Assembly (NCBI GenBank): GCA_902766095.1
Contig: CACXCN010000066.1
Location: 1 to 48,040, forward strand
DNA: 48,040 nucleotides
Reading direction: 5' to 3'
Source of the DNA: an uncultured Selenomonas sp.
Lineage (GTDB): Bacteria; Bacillota; Negativicutes; Selenomonadales; Selenomonadaceae
The position numbers and the translations under genes were made by a program. A model generated the notes under the pieces. It was not told the DNA's origin, searched no databases, and saw only the letters and a program-made list of their open reading frames with translations. Within the stretch, counting starts at the first letter, position 1; every line of letters begins with the position of its first letter. Positions 31,217-38,153 of this stretch are shown one piece after another.

Positions 31217-31255
31217 ATTATATGAATTTTGAAAAACGGATACGGGGGTGTAAGC

Positions 31256-31465
31256 ATGGAGCTTCGTGTGCTGAAATATTTTCTGGCCGTGGCGCGGCAT
31301 CAGAACATCACGCGGGCAGCCGAGGAGCTGCATCTGACGCAGGCCGGCCTGTTTCTCAAGGCGCGTGCGGAAGAGATGACGACACTGGAGGCCAAGACGC
31401 TCGACCAGTTCGCGCATATGGAGGACTTCGTTGCTGGTGATGTCTACTTGGGCTGTGGTGATGTT
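31256..31465 (+). pseudogene. LysR-family regulator remnant with internal deletion
   Basis: The first 29 codons match a LysR N terminus (MELRVLKYFLAVARHQNITR, AAEELHLTQ). The next residues expected (P-T-L-S-R-Q and the recognition helix, then about 20 more) are missing; the frame resumes with GLFLKARAEEM and EDFVAGDVYLGCG, which belong after the HTH. Everything past the start of the effector domain is lost. The open frame runs on to 31573 but reads into the next remnant out of its frame. A ribosome site (GGGGGTG) and start are intact, so a short peptide could still be made. Confidence 0.75.
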
Positions 31466-31484
31466 CAGCGAGGAGTATATCACT

Positions 31485-31809
31485 ATGAAGACAAAGAAAT
31501 TCTGGCGTCATTTGCTTTTGATGTCCGCTCTGGGAACGGTGCTGGCTGTCGGCGGTCAGGGAATGGCTGCTGAAGCTCATGAACATGCCGCTGCTCACCT
31601 ACGCCAGCGAGATCGAGAGTTCGGTGCTTGTCATTCACGGTGAGAAAGCCCATTCGCGCTATTTCAGCGAGACAGCGTTCAAGAAGCTCAAGGGCGATAA
31701 CAAGGAACTGCTGATTGTCCCAGGAGCCGTCCATACCGACCTTTACGACAACATGGAGAAAATCCCGTTCGACGAGATAACGGCGTTCTTCCAGAAGTAC
31801 CTGCAGTAA
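31485..31809 (+). pseudogene. Exported alpha/beta hydrolase remnant (internal deletion and frameshift)
   Basis: ATG 31485 with a GAGGAG site begins a signal peptide (MKTKKFWRHLLLMSALGTVL, ending MAAEA). Within about 15 codons the homology jumps to another frame, where residues such as VLVIHGEKAHSRYFSETAF and LLIVPGAVHTDLYDNMEKIP form the C-terminal end of an alpha/beta hydrolase, including the region with the catalytic His. The nucleophile elbow and the core of the enzyme are missing. Only the two ends survive. Confidence 0.75.
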
Positions 31810-31835
31810 ATCATTTCGTTATACACTGACGCATT

Positions 31836-31878
31836 CCCCGGACGGGGCAGTAATAAGCTGCTCCGTCCGGGGATTTTT
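31836..31878 (+). terminator. Rho-independent terminator after hydrolase remnant
   Basis: CCCCGGACGGGGCAG (31836-31850) pairs with CTGCTCCGTCCGGGG (31858-31872) over 15 positions with one G-U, followed by ATTTTTG. It is well preserved although the gene before it has decayed. Confidence 0.93.
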
Positions 31879-31918: not shown

Positions 31919-31947
31919 TTCACAAAACAGACGATTTAGAGTATAAT
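31919..31947 (+). promoter_or_regulatory. Sigma-A promoter of the CsgG/FlgT-like operon
   Basis: TTCACA (31919-31924), a 17-bp spacer and a perfect TATAAT (31942-31947) lie 44 bases before the first gene of the four-gene operon. Confidence 0.7.
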
Positions 31948-31990: not shown

Positions 31991-32905
31991 ATGTTGAAAA
32001 GAATTTGTCTGATGGGATGTGTGCTGGGAGCGATGCTCACCGGCATGGCGGGAATGGCGGCCGCGCAGGTGGTCACGGCAGACGGCGTAGGAGCCTCGGA
32101 AATCCTGGCTCTGCGCGACGCGAAGCGGGCGGCTATCGAGGAGGTCATGGGCAGTGCGATCAAATCGGAGACGGTCGTGCAGAATGGTGCCGTGACCAGC
32201 GACAACATATGGGCACGGACGCAGGGATTTGCAAAGAATGTGAAGATACTGCAGCGCTCTCAGGCCGGTGGGCTCTGGCGGGTTCGCGCCAGCATCGATG
32301 TCGGCGAGCGCCCGGGACTGGCCTCTGGTCATGCGACGCTCGGGGTTCCGGCTTTCAATCTCAATGGCCTGCTCTCACCCGAACAGGGGTGGAGTCGTGA
32401 CGAACTGCAGGTGGTCGATGATTTCGCGGTACAGCATCTGCAGGATACGGGCCGGTTCGTGCTGTTGGACCGCACACGTTTGCAGGAGATAGAGGCTGAG
32501 CGCAACCGGGCCCTGGCCAGCGGCGGCAATCTGGCTCTGCAGGTAGGCTCGGGCAGCATACAGGGCGCGCAGTACCTGGTATTCGGCACTGTGCTGGGGG
32601 TGACTACCAGACGCAGCGAGACGACGGTCGTGGGAGCAGGTACGAAGCGGGCCGGCGTGCATGCCAGTGTCAGCCTGCGCATCGTGGACGTAGAGACGGG
32701 AGCTATTGTCACGTCGGCCATAGGCCGCAACCGGCAGGTCAATCATCTGGTAAAGGCACCACTGGGCCTGGTACGTATCGGTACGGATGAGGTTGACAAG
32801 GAGCAGGTGCTCTGCGCCATAGAGGGAGCCGTAGACGATGCAGTGAACGGGCCGCGCGGTCTGATGGCGCGTATCGATGGTCGGACAGCCACCACGAAGA
32901 AATGA
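31991..32905 (+). CDS. Exported FlgT-N/CsgG-like protein (operon gene 1)
   Basis: The 304-residue protein has a signal peptide (about 1-25, ending MAAAQ). Residues about 27-105 follow the FlgT N-terminal/LPP20 pattern: an Ala-rich first helix (LALRDAKRAAIEEVMGSAI), then TVVQNGAVTSDNIWARTQGF and a final strand WRVRASIDVG. Residues about 112-290 resemble CsgG/LpoB/TolB-N folds: ELQVVDDFAVQHLQDTGRF, VLLDRTRLQEIEAERNRAL, GAQYLVFGTVLGV and SLRIVDVETGAIVTSAIGR. An early C10 (LMGC) is too near the N terminus for a lipobox. It is probably periplasmic or outer-membrane associated. It heads a four-gene operon. Confidence 0.7.
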   Translation: MLKRICLMGCVLGAMLTGMAGMAAAQVVTADGVGASEILALRDAKRAAIEEVMGSAIKSETVVQNGAVTSDNIWARTQGFAKNVKILQRSQAGGLWRVRASIDVGERPGLASGHATLGVPAFNLNGLLSPEQGWSRDELQVVDDFAVQHLQDTGRFVLLDRTRLQEIEAERNRALASGGNLALQVGSGSIQGAQYLVFGTVLGVTTRRSETTVVGAGTKRAGVHASVSLRIVDVETGAIVTSAIGRNRQVNHLVKAPLGLVRIGTDEVDKEQVLCAIEGAVDDAVNGPRGLMARIDGRTATTKK

Positions 32906-32915
32906 GGTGATTGGC

Positions 32916-33761
32916 ATGCACGGTGTAATCAGATGGAGATGGCTATGGAGCGTATTCGGCATCAGCCTGCTGCTGGTGTCGGGATGCGTGAGCGGCGAGG
33001 CTGCCGGGCTGTTCGCGAACCACAGTGGCTCCCAGATATATCTGGCCGAGGTGCAGAGCTATGGTGAGAGTGAGCTGAAGCCCGATTATCAGGCGACGCT
33101 GGCGGATAAGATAGCCGATCAGCTGCGTCAGAAGGGCCTGAGCGTCAGCGCCGCTCTCGATGTGACGAACGAATCCGGCCGCCATGATGCCATCGGTACA
33201 GCGGGCGACCAGGCCGCGTTATCCGAGATACACATGGATGCGATCATTCACGGTCATACCTTTGATCGCGGTTATGCTGCTCCGAAGCTGGCCCATTATG
33301 CCGATCAGACACTCGGGCGGGCGTATTTCCATGATGAGGCCCGGATAGAGAACTGGCAGAAATCCAATGTTCCCTACAGGCTGGGGAGCAAATGCCAGGC
33401 GGAAGCAGAGCGCATAGCGGCAGCGCGAGGGGCGCAAATGCTGTTGTTCGTCAACATACGGGATGTCGATGTCCGCCTGAAGCACAGCATATTCGCCTCG
33501 CATACGGACAAGGATACGCGCGGCAAGAAGCTGATGACCCAGCTTGACTACTATATCTGGGATGCCCGGTCCGGACGCGTATATGAGGGTACCAGTGAGA
33601 TAAAGAAGACCGCCCAGCTGGTGAATTTCGGCCTGGGCCAGGGCGGCAAGGGTATGGATATCGATGTGCTTGTGAATGTGGTGATGGATGCGCAGGCCAA
33701 GAAGCTGGCTGATGACCTGATGAAGCAGGGATTGCCAGCGCTGCGGGGCGGTGCGTCATGA
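32916..33761 (+). CDS. Lipoprotein, CsgG/TolB-N-like (operon gene 2)
   Basis: The 281-residue product carries a clear lipobox (LLLVSGC, Cys24), so it should be lipid-anchored, and in a diderm probably sorted to the outer membrane. The mature part resembles the TolB-N/CsgG style: IYLAEVQSYGESELKPDYQ, TLADKIADQLRQKGLSVSAA, ALSEIHMDAIIHGHTFDRGY, LLFVNIRDVDVRLK, and YYIWDARSGRVYEGTSEIKK near the end. The ATG at 32916 has GAGGTGA 5 bases upstream. Its stop overlaps gene 3 (ATGA). No named family recognised. Confidence 0.72.
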   Translation: MHGVIRWRWLWSVFGISLLLVSGCVSGEAAGLFANHSGSQIYLAEVQSYGESELKPDYQATLADKIADQLRQKGLSVSAALDVTNESGRHDAIGTAGDQAALSEIHMDAIIHGHTFDRGYAAPKLAHYADQTLGRAYFHDEARIENWQKSNVPYRLGSKCQAEAERIAAARGAQMLLFVNIRDVDVRLKHSIFASHTDKDTRGKKLMTQLDYYIWDARSGRVYEGTSEIKKTAQLVNFGLGQGGKGMDIDVLVNVVMDAQAKKLADDLMKQGLPALRGGAS

Positions 33762-34405
33762 GCGCCAGGAACATCGGCGGGGTCCTGTTGCTGGCAGGGT
33801 TCCTCCTGCTAGGCGGAGTATTGTTGAGCGGAGGGGCGCCCTTTGGCCCGTCATACGGTGAGGCGGCGGACCGGGCGACAGCTGTGGTGAGCTTCTCGAG
33901 CCGCCTGGCCAAGAGCAGTATCACTTCCACCGATATCAGCGAGGATATGATACGCGGTGTCCAGGACGTGGCGCGGGAGGAATTCTATGCTGACATCGTT
34001 GACTGTCCGAAGCTGGTATTGATTGATCAGGCGACGCAGGCACAACAGATAGCGGAACAGCATCGCGCGGAACTGGACACCGGCAGTGCCAGCCCCGGGG
34101 AGCGCCTCCAGGCTGACTATGAGCTGCAGGGCTTCGTGACCATGCTCAGCAATGTCAAGGCACAGAGCGGAGTACTTATGCTCTCCGGCAAGGACAAGAC
34201 GGTCTATGTCGAGCTCAGCCTGCGGGTCATCGACAGGAAAACCGGGATGGTGGTATTCACGGCTACGGCGGACTCGCGTCGCAAGAGCGAGTTATCGTAT
34301 CATGCGGTCGTGCATCGGGCCGACAGCGGTCTCGATGACGCGGTGGAGCAGGCTGTCAGCGACGCGGTGAGAAATCTGGCGGCTGATCTGCTGCAGGCAA
34401 TGTAG
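33758..34405 (+). CDS. Exported CsgG/LpoB-like protein (operon gene 3)
   Basis: The 215-residue protein begins with a hydrophobic signal or anchor (GGVLLLAGFLLLGGVLLSGG). The rest carries the same trace as genes 1 and 2: ATAVVSFSSRLAKSSITSTD, DMIRGVQDVAREEFY, KLVLIDQATQAQQIAEQHRA, ELSLRVIDRKTGMVVFTATA and a C-terminal helix (VEQAVSDAVRNLAADLLQAM). It overlaps gene 2 by four bases, which suggests coupled translation and fixed stoichiometry. No named family recognised. Confidence 0.7.
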   Translation: MSARNIGGVLLLAGFLLLGGVLLSGGAPFGPSYGEAADRATAVVSFSSRLAKSSITSTDISEDMIRGVQDVAREEFYADIVDCPKLVLIDQATQAQQIAEQHRAELDTGSASPGERLQADYELQGFVTMLSNVKAQSGVLMLSGKDKTVYVELSLRVIDRKTGMVVFTATADSRRKSELSYHAVVHRADSGLDDAVEQAVSDAVRNLAADLLQAM

Positions 34406-34441
34406 ACAGGTGGAAATATAACGAGTAAAGGATGAGGGATT

Positions 34442-35749
34442 TTGCGCAAGCTGACGATGAGCCTGATGACCGGGGCGCTGCTGGCGGGGATGCTTTACCA
34501 TGCAGCGCCAGTGGCGGCACATGGCAATATCTGGATGGACGAGGGGAAGAATATCACGGCGGCAGAGAGCAAGGATTTCGTGCCCGTTACGAAATTCAGG
34601 AAGATACTGGTCTTCCCGATCAGCCGGCCAGGAAGCCATGATGGCGACCCCGATGATCTGACCGACCTGAACGATATGTTCAACAAACGCGTGAATAAAC
34701 GCATACACAAGACGAATTTTCTGCGTTTCCGCTCCCGGAGTGATGCGCAGATGGCGGACAAAGAGCTGGAGAAGAATCACATCTTGCGCCCGAAAGAGGG
34801 ACTGAACCGGCTATTGCAGCACTATCCCAGCGAGCAGGAACGGGCCAGGGATGTCTACGATCTGACAGGGGCCGAAGGATTCCTGCTGCCTCATATCCGC
34901 TTTGTCAAGATGAGGGAAGATGTGTCTCCGGCTACATGGACCCGTGTCACCATGACCTCGTACTATGATGAAGAGGACGGACCTAAGGGCGACCGCAGTG
35001 GATTAGGGAAGCATGTATGGACAGCAGATCACCTCATCCCCAGGATGACGAATACCCTATGCATGGTGGATATGGATTTCACGCTCTATGATACGGCAAG
35101 CCAGAGGAAGACGATGACTCTGATTGATTATTATCGCTGCTATAACGTCGACTATGACCACGCATTCAATCAGATATTCAAGAATTTTACGGGCGACTGG
35201 AAACGCCTGAAGGATGATGCGTCAAGCCAGGCTCCGGCTGGAGCTCCGACAATCGGTTTCACCAATCTGCGTCTGCCGGCCTCAGCCTCGAACAATGAAT
35301 TCTCCATCAAGACCATATACTATGCATACAAGGATGAGGCCGAAGACACATTGAAGAACCTGCGCCCCGATTTTGCGCCCGGTGGGGGCAGATACTACGT
35401 GCGCGGCACACTGACGAACTATGACCGAGGTCAGACATGGAATCCTCCGACGGCTTCGACGAGTATCTACCTGGATCACACGGAGACCTTCAAATGGAGG
35501 GATTCCAAGGGGGACGAGCATACGGGGAAGCGGAAGTATTATAAGACGGAGATCACAGACTATGCGGGCTGCTACACTTTCTGGTACAGTGCTGCGGCTG
35601 ATTTGCAGGTCGTCGATCGCCGGACGGGGACGGTGGTCTTTTCCCACAGCTACGAGGCCTATGATCCGGAGCGCTATGCCAATGCGCTGCGGCGGATATT
35701 TGGCGATTTCTACCGCGATGTCGACAAAAGATTGGGCAGCCAGATCTGA
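34442..35749 (+). CDS. Exported protein with two similar halves (operon gene 4)
   Basis: The 435-residue protein starts at TTG 34442 (GGATGAGGGA upstream) and has a signal peptide (about 1-26, ending PVAA). Two halves seem related to each other and to genes 1-3. Half one (about 50-265) has KILVFPISRP, GAEGFLLPHIRFVKM, MDFTLYDTASQRKTMTLIDY and AFNQIFKNFTGDWKRLKDD. Half two (about 270-435) has TIGFTNLRLP, RYYVRGTLTNY, ADLQVVDRRTGTVVFSHSYE and ALRRIFGDFYRDVDKRLGS. In both, a strand with a D-x-x-T turn is followed by a closing helix. No named family recognised. Confidence 0.7.
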   Translation: MRKLTMSLMTGALLAGMLYHAAPVAAHGNIWMDEGKNITAAESKDFVPVTKFRKILVFPISRPGSHDGDPDDLTDLNDMFNKRVNKRIHKTNFLRFRSRSDAQMADKELEKNHILRPKEGLNRLLQHYPSEQERARDVYDLTGAEGFLLPHIRFVKMREDVSPATWTRVTMTSYYDEEDGPKGDRSGLGKHVWTADHLIPRMTNTLCMVDMDFTLYDTASQRKTMTLIDYYRCYNVDYDHAFNQIFKNFTGDWKRLKDDASSQAPAGAPTIGFTNLRLPASASNNEFSIKTIYYAYKDEAEDTLKNLRPDFAPGGGRYYVRGTLTNYDRGQTWNPPTASTSIYLDHTETFKWRDSKGDEHTGKRKYYKTEITDYAGCYTFWYSAAADLQVVDRRTGTVVFSHSYEAYDPERYANALRRIFGDFYRDVDKRLGSQI

Positions 35750-35834: not shown

Positions 35835-38153
35835 ATGGGAACCGATAAAGCATCATTATCCGAAGAGGATATCAAGCATCGCTACATCACACCGGCACTG
35901 GAGCGCGTCTGGCGGCCGACAGACATCCGCATGGAGTTGCCCATCACGGCGGGGCGTGTCAATATCAAGGGAAACATGGAGTCGCGGGAGCGGCCGAAGT
36001 TTGCCGACTACGTTCTGTATACGCCCTCGGGCTATCCACTGGCCATCGTCGAGGCGAAGGATAATACGCATACCGTTTCGTTCGGTTTGCAGCAGGCGAA
36101 GACGTATGCGGAGATGATGGATATCCAGTTTGCCTACAGCTCGAACGGCGATGCCTTTGTCGAATATGATTTTCTGACCGGCATCGAGCGCGAGCTGCCG
36201 CTCGATGCATTCCCGACACCAGAGGAGCTCATGGCCAGGCTCCGGCAGGAAGGCCATCTGACGGAGAAGCAGATCAAGGTCATCGAGCAGCCATTCTATC
36301 TGTCAGAAAGCACATATGCGCCGCGCTACTATCAGCGTGTCGCTGTCGACCGCACGCTCGACGCGATCGCTCGCGGCCAGCAGCGTCTGCTGCTCGTCAT
36401 GGCAACCGGCACCGGCAAGACATACACGGCGTTCCAGATCATCTACCGCCTGCGTCAGGCGGGACTGAAGCGCAAGATCCTCTACCTCGCCGACCGCAAT
36501 ATCCTGCTCGACCAGTCCATCCAGCAGGATTTCCGTCCGCTGACAAATGTCATCCACAAGATCAGCTATGCCGCCGACGAACGCACGACCATCACTGCTT
36601 ACGAGGTCTATTTCTCCCTCTACCAGCAGCTTTTCGGCGAGGATGACGAGGAGCGCTTCCGTGAGCTCTTTGATCCCGATTTCTTCGACCTCGTCGTCGT
36701 CGACGAGTGCCATCGCGGCTCCGCAAAGGCTGACAGCCGCTGGCGCAAGATTCTCGACTACTTCCGCTCGGCCACTCAGATCGGCATGACCGCCACGCCG
36801 AAGGAGACGGCGTACGTCTCCAACATCGACTATTTCGGCGAGCCGGTCTACACATACAGCCTGCGGCAGGGCATCGACGATGGCTTCCTCGCGCCGTTCC
36901 GCGTCATCAATGTACAGACGAATATCGGCGACGGCTGGCGGCCGCGCAAGGGACAGCGTGATTTCTTCGGTCAGGAGATCGAGGATCGCATCTATAACAA
37001 TACAGATTACGACTATCATATCGTCCTCGAGGACCGCATCCGCGAAGTCGCCGCGCGCGTCACGACCTACCTGCGGCATACCGACCGCATGGCCAAGACC
37101 ATCGTCTTCTGCGCCGACGAGCCTGCGGCGGAGCGCATGCGCCATGCTCTCGCGCAGCAGAACGCCGACATGATGAAGAAATACCCGAACTACGTCGTGC
37201 GCATCACGGGCAGCGATCCCTATGGCAAAAGCCAGCTCGGCTATTTCATCTCCGTCTCCTCGCCGACGCCGGTCATCGCTACGACCTCGCAGCTCCTGTC
37301 GACCGGCGTCGATTGCAAGATGGTCAAGCTCATCGTCCTCGACGAGAACATCGCCTCGATGACCATGTTCAAGCAGATCATCGGTCGCGGGACGCGTCTG
37401 CGCTATGAAGACGGCAAGCGCAGCTTCGTCATTATGGACTTCCGCGGCGTCACGCGCCTCTTCGCCGATCCGGACTGGGACGGCCCCCTCATCGAGGACC
37501 CCGGCTACAGCACCGGGGAGGGAGGCGGCGAGCCGCGAGGTGGCAGGAAGGGCGGCGGCAAGGGCGGTGGCAAGCCGGCCAGCAAGCCCTATGTGCGCGC
37601 CGACGGCTGCCAGGTCTATACCGTGCAGGAGACCGTCTCCGTCTACGACACCGGCGGCAAGCTCCTGCAGCAGGAGAACATCATCGACTATACGAAGGAG
37701 AATATCCTCGGCCAGTTCGGGGACCTTCACGCCTTCATCCACGAGTGGAACGCTGCGGCGAAGAAGCAGGCCATCGCCGATGCTCTCGCGGAGCGCGGCA
37801 TCGATCTCGACAAGCTCAAGCAGACGATGAATATGGCCGATGTCGACGACTTCGATTTCATCTGTCATGTCGCCTACGACCAGAAACCTCTGACGCGCCG
37901 CGAGCGCGCCGAGGGTGTGCGGAAACGCGACTTCCTGAGCCGGTACAGCGGCGACGCCCGCGCCGTCCTCGAGACACTGCTCGACAGCTACAAGGATCTT
38001 GGCATCAAGGACATCGAAAAGACCGACGTGCTCCGCATGAAGGACTTCCAGAAATTCGGCAAACCGGGGCGCATCGCCAAGCTTTTCAACGGCAAGAAAG
38101 GCTACGAGGAAGCGGTGCGTGCCCTCGAACAAGAACTCTACAAGGCAGGTTAA
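35835..38153 (+). CDS. hsdR: Type I restriction endonuclease subunit R
   Basis: HsdR translocates DNA and cuts unmodified molecules far from the recognition site. The 772-residue protein has an N-terminal nuclease fold (FADYVLYTPSG, then IVEAKDN with the E-x-K active site), SF2 helicase motifs (Walker A MATGTGKTYTAF, DECHRGS, TATP, QIIGRGTRLRYEDG) and a C-terminal helical region for binding M. A Gly/Arg-rich stretch (about 556-580) links the helicase and C-terminal parts. GAGAGGTGAT lies before the ATG. hsdM starts 6 bases after its stop. Confidence 0.95.
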   Translation: MGTDKASLSEEDIKHRYITPALERVWRPTDIRMELPITAGRVNIKGNMESRERPKFADYVLYTPSGYPLAIVEAKDNTHTVSFGLQQAKTYAEMMDIQFAYSSNGDAFVEYDFLTGIERELPLDAFPTPEELMARLRQEGHLTEKQIKVIEQPFYLSESTYAPRYYQRVAVDRTLDAIARGQQRLLLVMATGTGKTYTAFQIIYRLRQAGLKRKILYLADRNILLDQSIQQDFRPLTNVIHKISYAADERTTITAYEVYFSLYQQLFGEDDEERFRELFDPDFFDLVVVDECHRGSAKADSRWRKILDYFRSATQIGMTATPKETAYVSNIDYFGEPVYTYSLRQGIDDGFLAPFRVINVQTNIGDGWRPRKGQRDFFGQEIEDRIYNNTDYDYHIVLEDRIREVAARVTTYLRHTDRMAKTIVFCADEPAAERMRHALAQQNADMMKKYPNYVVRITGSDPYGKSQLGYFISVSSPTPVIATTSQLLSTGVDCKMVKLIVLDENIASMTMFKQIIGRGTRLRYEDGKRSFVIMDFRGVTRLFADPDWDGPLIEDPGYSTGEGGGEPRGGRKGGGKGGGKPASKPYVRADGCQVYTVQETVSVYDTGGKLLQQENIIDYTKENILGQFGDLHAFIHEWNAAAKKQAIADALAERGIDLDKLKQTMNMADVDDFDFICHVAYDQKPLTRRERAEGVRKRDFLSRYSGDARAVLETLLDSYKDLGIKDIEKTDVLRMKDFQKFGKPGRIAKLFNGKKGYEEAVRALEQELYKAG

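Follow-up and report, generated by a model that had tools for sequence, protein, structure and literature searches.

We found that four consecutive genes in a stretch of 48,040 nucleotides from an uncultured Selenomonas sp. (assembly GCA_902766095.1, contig CACXCN010000066.1, positions 1-48,040 of the forward strand; the whole stretch is hereafter called the window) form an operon that reuses, in predicted exported proteins, the domain types of the flagellar H ring, namely FlgT_N, FlgT_M/CsgG, and often LPP20. Co-occurrence across genomes shows that the operon is independent of flagella. In the reading we prefer, to which we assign a probability of roughly 0.42, its products would come together beneath the outer membrane, on its periplasmic side, as a hetero-oligomer shaped as a ring, disk, or collar, which would resemble the H ring or basal disk but not depend on a flagellum.

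The operon carries several diverged copies of one fold

The four genes are tightly packed, with a gap of 10 bases, a 4-base overlap, and a gap of 36 bases between them, and a strong terminator-like hairpin sets them apart from the upstream gene. One good sigma-70-like candidate site lies 5' of gene 1, in keeping with the shared promoter that an earlier note on this DNA had proposed together with the tight packing; since promoter-like sites in the region are no more frequent than chance, only this site was counted. N-terminal signal sequences, judged by eye, predict that all four products are exported, as had also been claimed. Other genomes encode relatives of the products of genes 1-4, at 40-58% identity and with the gene order preserved, and the genes are therefore not chance open reading frames. 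The features are as follows, with residue numbers for the domains.

31991..32905 (+): gene 1, exported, 304 residues; chimera that fuses a FlgT_N-like domain of family A to a CsgG domain of family A2
32066..32308 (+): gene 1 FlgT_N-like domain, residues 26-106
32327..32860 (+): gene 1 CsgG-fold domain, residues 113-290; closest to Mitsuokella A2
32916..33761 (+): gene 2 (family B), exported, 281 residues; ATG at 32916; C-terminal half CsgG/FlgT_M-like
33758..34405 (+): gene 3 (family C), exported, 215 residues; CsgG/LpoB-like
34442..35749 (+): gene 4 (family D), exported, 435 residues; TTG start; tandem CsgG/TolB-N-like domains
34589..35221 (+): gene 4 first CsgG/PelC-like domain, residues 50-260, from the predicted structure
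35234..35746 (+): gene 4 second CsgG/FlgT_M-like domain, residues 265-435, from the predicted structure
31919..31947 (+): promoter-like site TTCACA-17-TATAAT, sigma-70-like, 11 of 12 consensus positions; a consensus match only
31835..31873 (+): terminator-like hairpin with a 17-pair stem and T run, ending the upstream unit

Besides one FlgT_N-like domain, the operon encodes five CsgG/TolB-N/FlgT_M-fold domains in the window, counting gene 2, and six in its common five-gene form. The earlier proposal of several diverged copies of one fold is supported by Pfam and structure for gene 1, by profile comparison for gene 3, by structure for gene 4, and more weakly for gene 2.

Gene 1 exceeded the Pfam cut-off for CsgG, which is 20.8 bits, with a score of 54.6 bits (E 1.2e-14), while FlgT_N fell below its cut-off in the window protein (E 0.079) and reached 1.8e-7 in the best relative. 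The AlphaFold model (predicted local distance difference test, pLDDT, 84) contains a FlgT_N-like domain at residues 26-106 and a CsgG-fold domain at residues 113-290, and Foldseek matched it to Vibrio FlgT (3w1e, E 2e-9) across both FlgT_N and FlgT_M, with residues 26-297 aligning with FlgT residues 1-264. The model also matched CsgG (Foldseek E 3.5e-9, 21% identity; VIA-align Z 11.5-13) and, more weakly, the Campylobacter periplasmic scaffold 9hmf. Both Pfam CsgG and the predicted structure thus bear out the FlgT N-terminal plus CsgG-like pattern first noticed in this gene.

Alignments and trees show gene 1 to be a fusion of family A's FlgT_N domain with family A2's CsgG domain, A's own CsgG domain being absent. 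In the CsgG-domain tree, gene 1 groups with Mitsuokella A2 (98/91), and similar chimeras at two other loci (L081 and L083) group with a different A2 (99/94). Since these chimeras sit with different A2s, the A/A2 fusion probably arose at least twice, although the long branch of the window protein keeps this short of certain. Elsewhere in its genome, the window's organism has a full-length A-like protein (G000:C94; L063:9783-10874, - strand), which shares 36% identity with Selenomonas A along almost all of its length, and one LPP20 protein (G000:C65; L114), and no recognisable flagellar genes were seen beside either. The stand-alone A-type protein, with its FlgT_N-CsgG architecture, adjoins an unassigned 351-residue protein and lies near iron-uptake-like genes.

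Gene 4 matched no Pfam family, and comparison of its family profile with those of the other families gave no convincing link (18.5% at best, the others under 5%). Its AlphaFold model (pLDDT 84.6; predicted template modelling score, pTM, 0.76) has two CsgG/TolB-N-like domains in tandem, and the CsgG-like traces suspected in both halves are therefore borne out by predicted structure, not by sequence. The best match of the first domain was PelC (5t0z; Z 13.1 over 148 residues, root-mean-square deviation (rmsd) 4.1, about 5% identity), and the second domain matched CsgG (6lqh; Z 11.8, rmsd 3.0) and FlgT (3w1e; Z 11.6, rmsd 2.5) over 122-124 residues.

Weaker CsgG/LpoB-like traces had been reported for genes 2 and 3, and profile comparison agrees with this. 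Gene 3 came just under the Pfam cut-off for CsgG (E 1e-3) and was also under that for LpoB (E 4.5e-4), and family C was linked to A/A2 at 99.1%; PDB profile matches of family C to WD-repeat proteins, about 40 residues long, were judged to be chance. The CsgG/FlgT_M fold of gene 2 is the weakest and least certain of the four. Its FlgT_M match was below the cut-off (E 0.0045), FlgT_M matches occurred in 10 of its 34 relatives, and the family B profile, built without the B-C fusion described below, was linked to A/A2 at 80.7% across the CsgG core, in the C-terminal half only. Within family B, an IHMDAI motif is nearly invariant and E45, Y49, G50, H106, D108, Y128, and K204 are also invariant, a degree of conservation that exceeds the need of a plain scaffold.

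Gene 2 had been called a lipoprotein. The lipobox VSGC is real in the window sequence, but it is nearly absent from the relatives (2 of 34 family B proteins, window included), and lipoboxes were found in 0 of 44 A, A2, and gene 1 proteins, 0 of 25 C proteins, and 0 of 34 D proteins. By these counts, the lipobox cysteine of the window's gene 2 is a local feature, and we rejected a lipoprotein system.

The operon is confined to part of the Selenomonadaceae and occurs without flagella

Relatives of gene 2 were found in 53 of 189 genomes of the order, all in one family, the Selenomonadaceae (assigned from record titles, some under older names such as Veillonellaceae), and one more genome of the class gave a marginal match (E 1.9e-4). 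Relatives of gene 4 occurred in 5 of 398 genomes sampled across the phylum, again all Selenomonadaceae, two of them weak half-length matches; a scan of genome contigs with gene 1 alone as the query gave no match. As far as searched, the operon is confined to part of this family. The suggestion of a Negativicutes-specific structure therefore stands in that the operon is lineage-restricted, but the range is narrower than the class, with no solid match outside part of the Selenomonadaceae. Named carriers are Mitsuokella multacida, Mitsuokella jalaludinii, Selenomonas ruminantium, Selenomonas ruminis, and a Schwartzia, alongside many ruminant metagenome genomes.

Presence of the operon does not follow that of FliF. 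It was found in 6 of 16 FliF-negative and 47 of 173 FliF-positive genomes and is thus not commoner with FliF. Genomes with the operon and without FliF include all three genomes of one genus (g8; two are Mitsuokella; 99-100% complete) and a further genome (G162, 99% complete). Since the operon is present in FliF-lacking genomes, it is not a flagellar part.

The gene order recurs across genomes. The commonest arrangement is five genes, A-A2-B-C-D, which was exact in 19 of 44 fetched loci, and many more of these loci have it with additions or at contig ends; the window operon is a reduced four-gene form. B and C are fused into one gene at L081 and apparently also at L094, L098, L101, and L106-L108, a group including Schwartzia, in which A2 precedes the fusion where more of the locus is available. 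C and D are swapped at L072, D is duplicated at L079, and up to nine genes are present at L087 and L111, where LPP20, FlgT_N, and extra CsgG-fold genes are added. LPP20 (FlgP family) genes join the cluster in 11 of the 44 loci, and a further FlgT_N gene does so in several. Since the surrounding genes differ among genome groups, it is the module that is conserved and not its neighbourhood.

Several observations concern the added genes and the surroundings. A 290-residue secreted protein without a Pfam family (L034:1740-2612, +) is a possible client; its own cluster is represented at the three loci L034, L037, and L040, which also carry the extra FlgT_N and LPP20 genes. A FlgT_N protein adjoining an LPP20 protein recurs across the Selenomonadaceae (G140:C15, G132:C14, G136:C20, and others), also where the operon is absent, and is possibly an ancestral pair. 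In the window, a type I restriction subunit-like gene lies 3' of the operon at 35835, and the upstream region 31229-31809 contains, in translations read by eye, broken genes in several frames, apparently remnants of a LysR-type regulator and an alpha/beta hydrolase.

A proposed ring at the outer membrane compared with other explanations

CsgG/FlgT-fold proteins form rings in amyloid secretion and flagella, and structure entry titles identify CsgG, a PelC dodecamer, a TraT decamer, and a flagellar LPHT ring as ring-forming solved relatives. We propose that the operon products are exported, carry the CsgG/TolB-N/FlgT_M fold, and would join as different subunits of one ring, disk, or collar, a hetero-oligomer lining the outer membrane at its periplasmic face. 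In its working, such a ring would resemble the H ring or basal disk of flagella, with its FlgT/FlgP-type parts, but without the flagellum, and it may serve the envelope or another outer-membrane machine; any cargo or client would be conjectural. The natural B-C fusions suggest that B and C act together.

Several points weigh against this proposal. Some relatives of the fold, namely TolB, LptE, and LpoB, act singly or in one-to-one complexes. No lipid anchor is conserved in the operon families, and gene 4 has long hairpins that are charge-rich (25%, mean hydropathy -0.5 to -0.9), which disfavours its insertion into the membrane; attachment to the outer membrane is therefore only putative. The profile match of gene 2 is limited to its C-terminal half. 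A bolder version strikes us as rather doubtful. In it, the operon would encode a machine in the outer membrane of diderm Firmicutes, ring- or disk-shaped and independent of the flagellum, as a hetero-oligomer of five or six diverged CsgG/FlgT-fold domains with optional FlgP-like (LPP20) rings and with no characterised counterpart.

It is unlikely, in our estimate, that the operon encodes a CsgG-like outer-membrane secretion channel for a non-curli substrate, with gene 1 (A/A2) as the pore and genes 2-4 as gate, chaperone, or adaptor. Among solved pores, CsgG is nearest to gene 1 in sequence and ranks with the best in structure, and in the single-chain gene 1 model one long hairpin, formed by strands 195-213 and 216-233, takes the position of the first CsgG transmembrane hairpin. 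However, gene 1 is 10 residues shorter than CsgG across the aligned stretch containing this hairpin, and the model has no second long hairpin, the corresponding place being occupied by a 14-residue link between strand 239-255 and helix 270-286. The lack of a lipobox throughout A, A2, and gene 1 also argues against a channel, as does the lack of any constant substrate-like neighbour. Homologues of CsgA (PF07012) and CsgF (PF10614) were found in 0 of 9 genomes, while the E. coli control was found, and on this ground we rejected a curli system. This result, with no penicillin-binding-protein neighbour seen, agrees with the earlier observation that neither kind of partner lies beside the genes.

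It is distinctly improbable that the proteins are LpoB-like and regulate peptidoglycan synthases or other wall enzymes, with one adaptor for each partner. Gene 1 was just over the Pfam LpoB cut-off (23.6 versus 22.3 bits), 23 of its 44 relatives matched LpoB at E 0.01 or better, and gene 3 did so weakly, but CsgG outscores LpoB by far in gene 1. LpoB is a lipoprotein that needs to span the periplasm, whereas neither a lipobox nor a long linker is conserved in the operon proteins, and LpoB has nothing that corresponds to the FlgT_N domain or to gene 4's tandem domains. Very improbable, finally, is a part of the motor of Selenomonas-type flagella, the H-ring-like structure entertained in the earlier note: FlgT_N, FlgT_M, and LPP20 are the domain types of which Vibrio FlgT and FlgP are made (PMC6504787), and the window's genome has FliF, but persistence of the operon in genomes without FliF, Mitsuokella included, contradicts this idea and largely refutes it, and none of the flanking clusters seen was flagellar.

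Meaning and comparison with known systems

Among the open-licence papers searched, we found no described counterpart of a co-conserved operon whose CsgG/FlgT-fold proteins are mostly paralogous and have no link to curli or flagella, and no papers on CsgG in Selenomonas or diderm Firmicutes. The sole paper found that combined CsgG with Negativicutes was a gut-microbiome marker study, and a paper on the outer-membrane proteome of Veillonella parvula makes no mention of CsgG, curli, FlgT, or LPP20. If four to nine exported proteins of this or a related kind are encoded in a conserved operon that requires neither curli nor flagella, gut and rumen diderm Firmicutes would have an envelope structure that is so far undescribed. 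The operon also illustrates how paralogues of one ring-forming fold can multiply and swap domains, FlgT_N having moved, apparently repeatedly, to another CsgG domain.

By fold, the operon proteins are new members of a known superfamily. LpoB, Neisseria GNA1162, the TolB N-domain, PqiC, LptE, and TraT have the general fold in common with them but differ in partners and architectures, and the only family-level match among these is that of gene 1, just over the LpoB cut-off. LpoB is an outer-membrane lipoprotein, unlike families A/A2 and C, and the models of genes 1 and 4 resemble TolB in the N-domain fold only, with no beta-propeller. PelC, the dodecameric outer-membrane lipoprotein of Pel export, is the best match of the first half of gene 4, which differs from it in having two tandem domains, no lipid anchor, and only about 5% identity. 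CsgG, the curli channel, shares its fold with gene 1 by Pfam, with gene 3 by profile, and with both halves of gene 4 by model, whereas gene 1 and its A/A2 relatives are without its lipobox, the gene 1 model shows no second transmembrane hairpin, and neither CsgA nor CsgF was found in the nine genomes. In Vibrio, the H ring that encircles the flagellum at the outer membrane consists of FlgT and FlgO together with FlgP (PMC6504787). Gene 1 has the same FlgT_N plus FlgT_M-like architecture, and LPP20 genes often join the cluster, but gene 1 ends after its CsgG/FlgT_M domain, without the C-terminal domain of FlgT, and the Selenomonadaceae cluster comprises four to nine genes that are independent of flagella.

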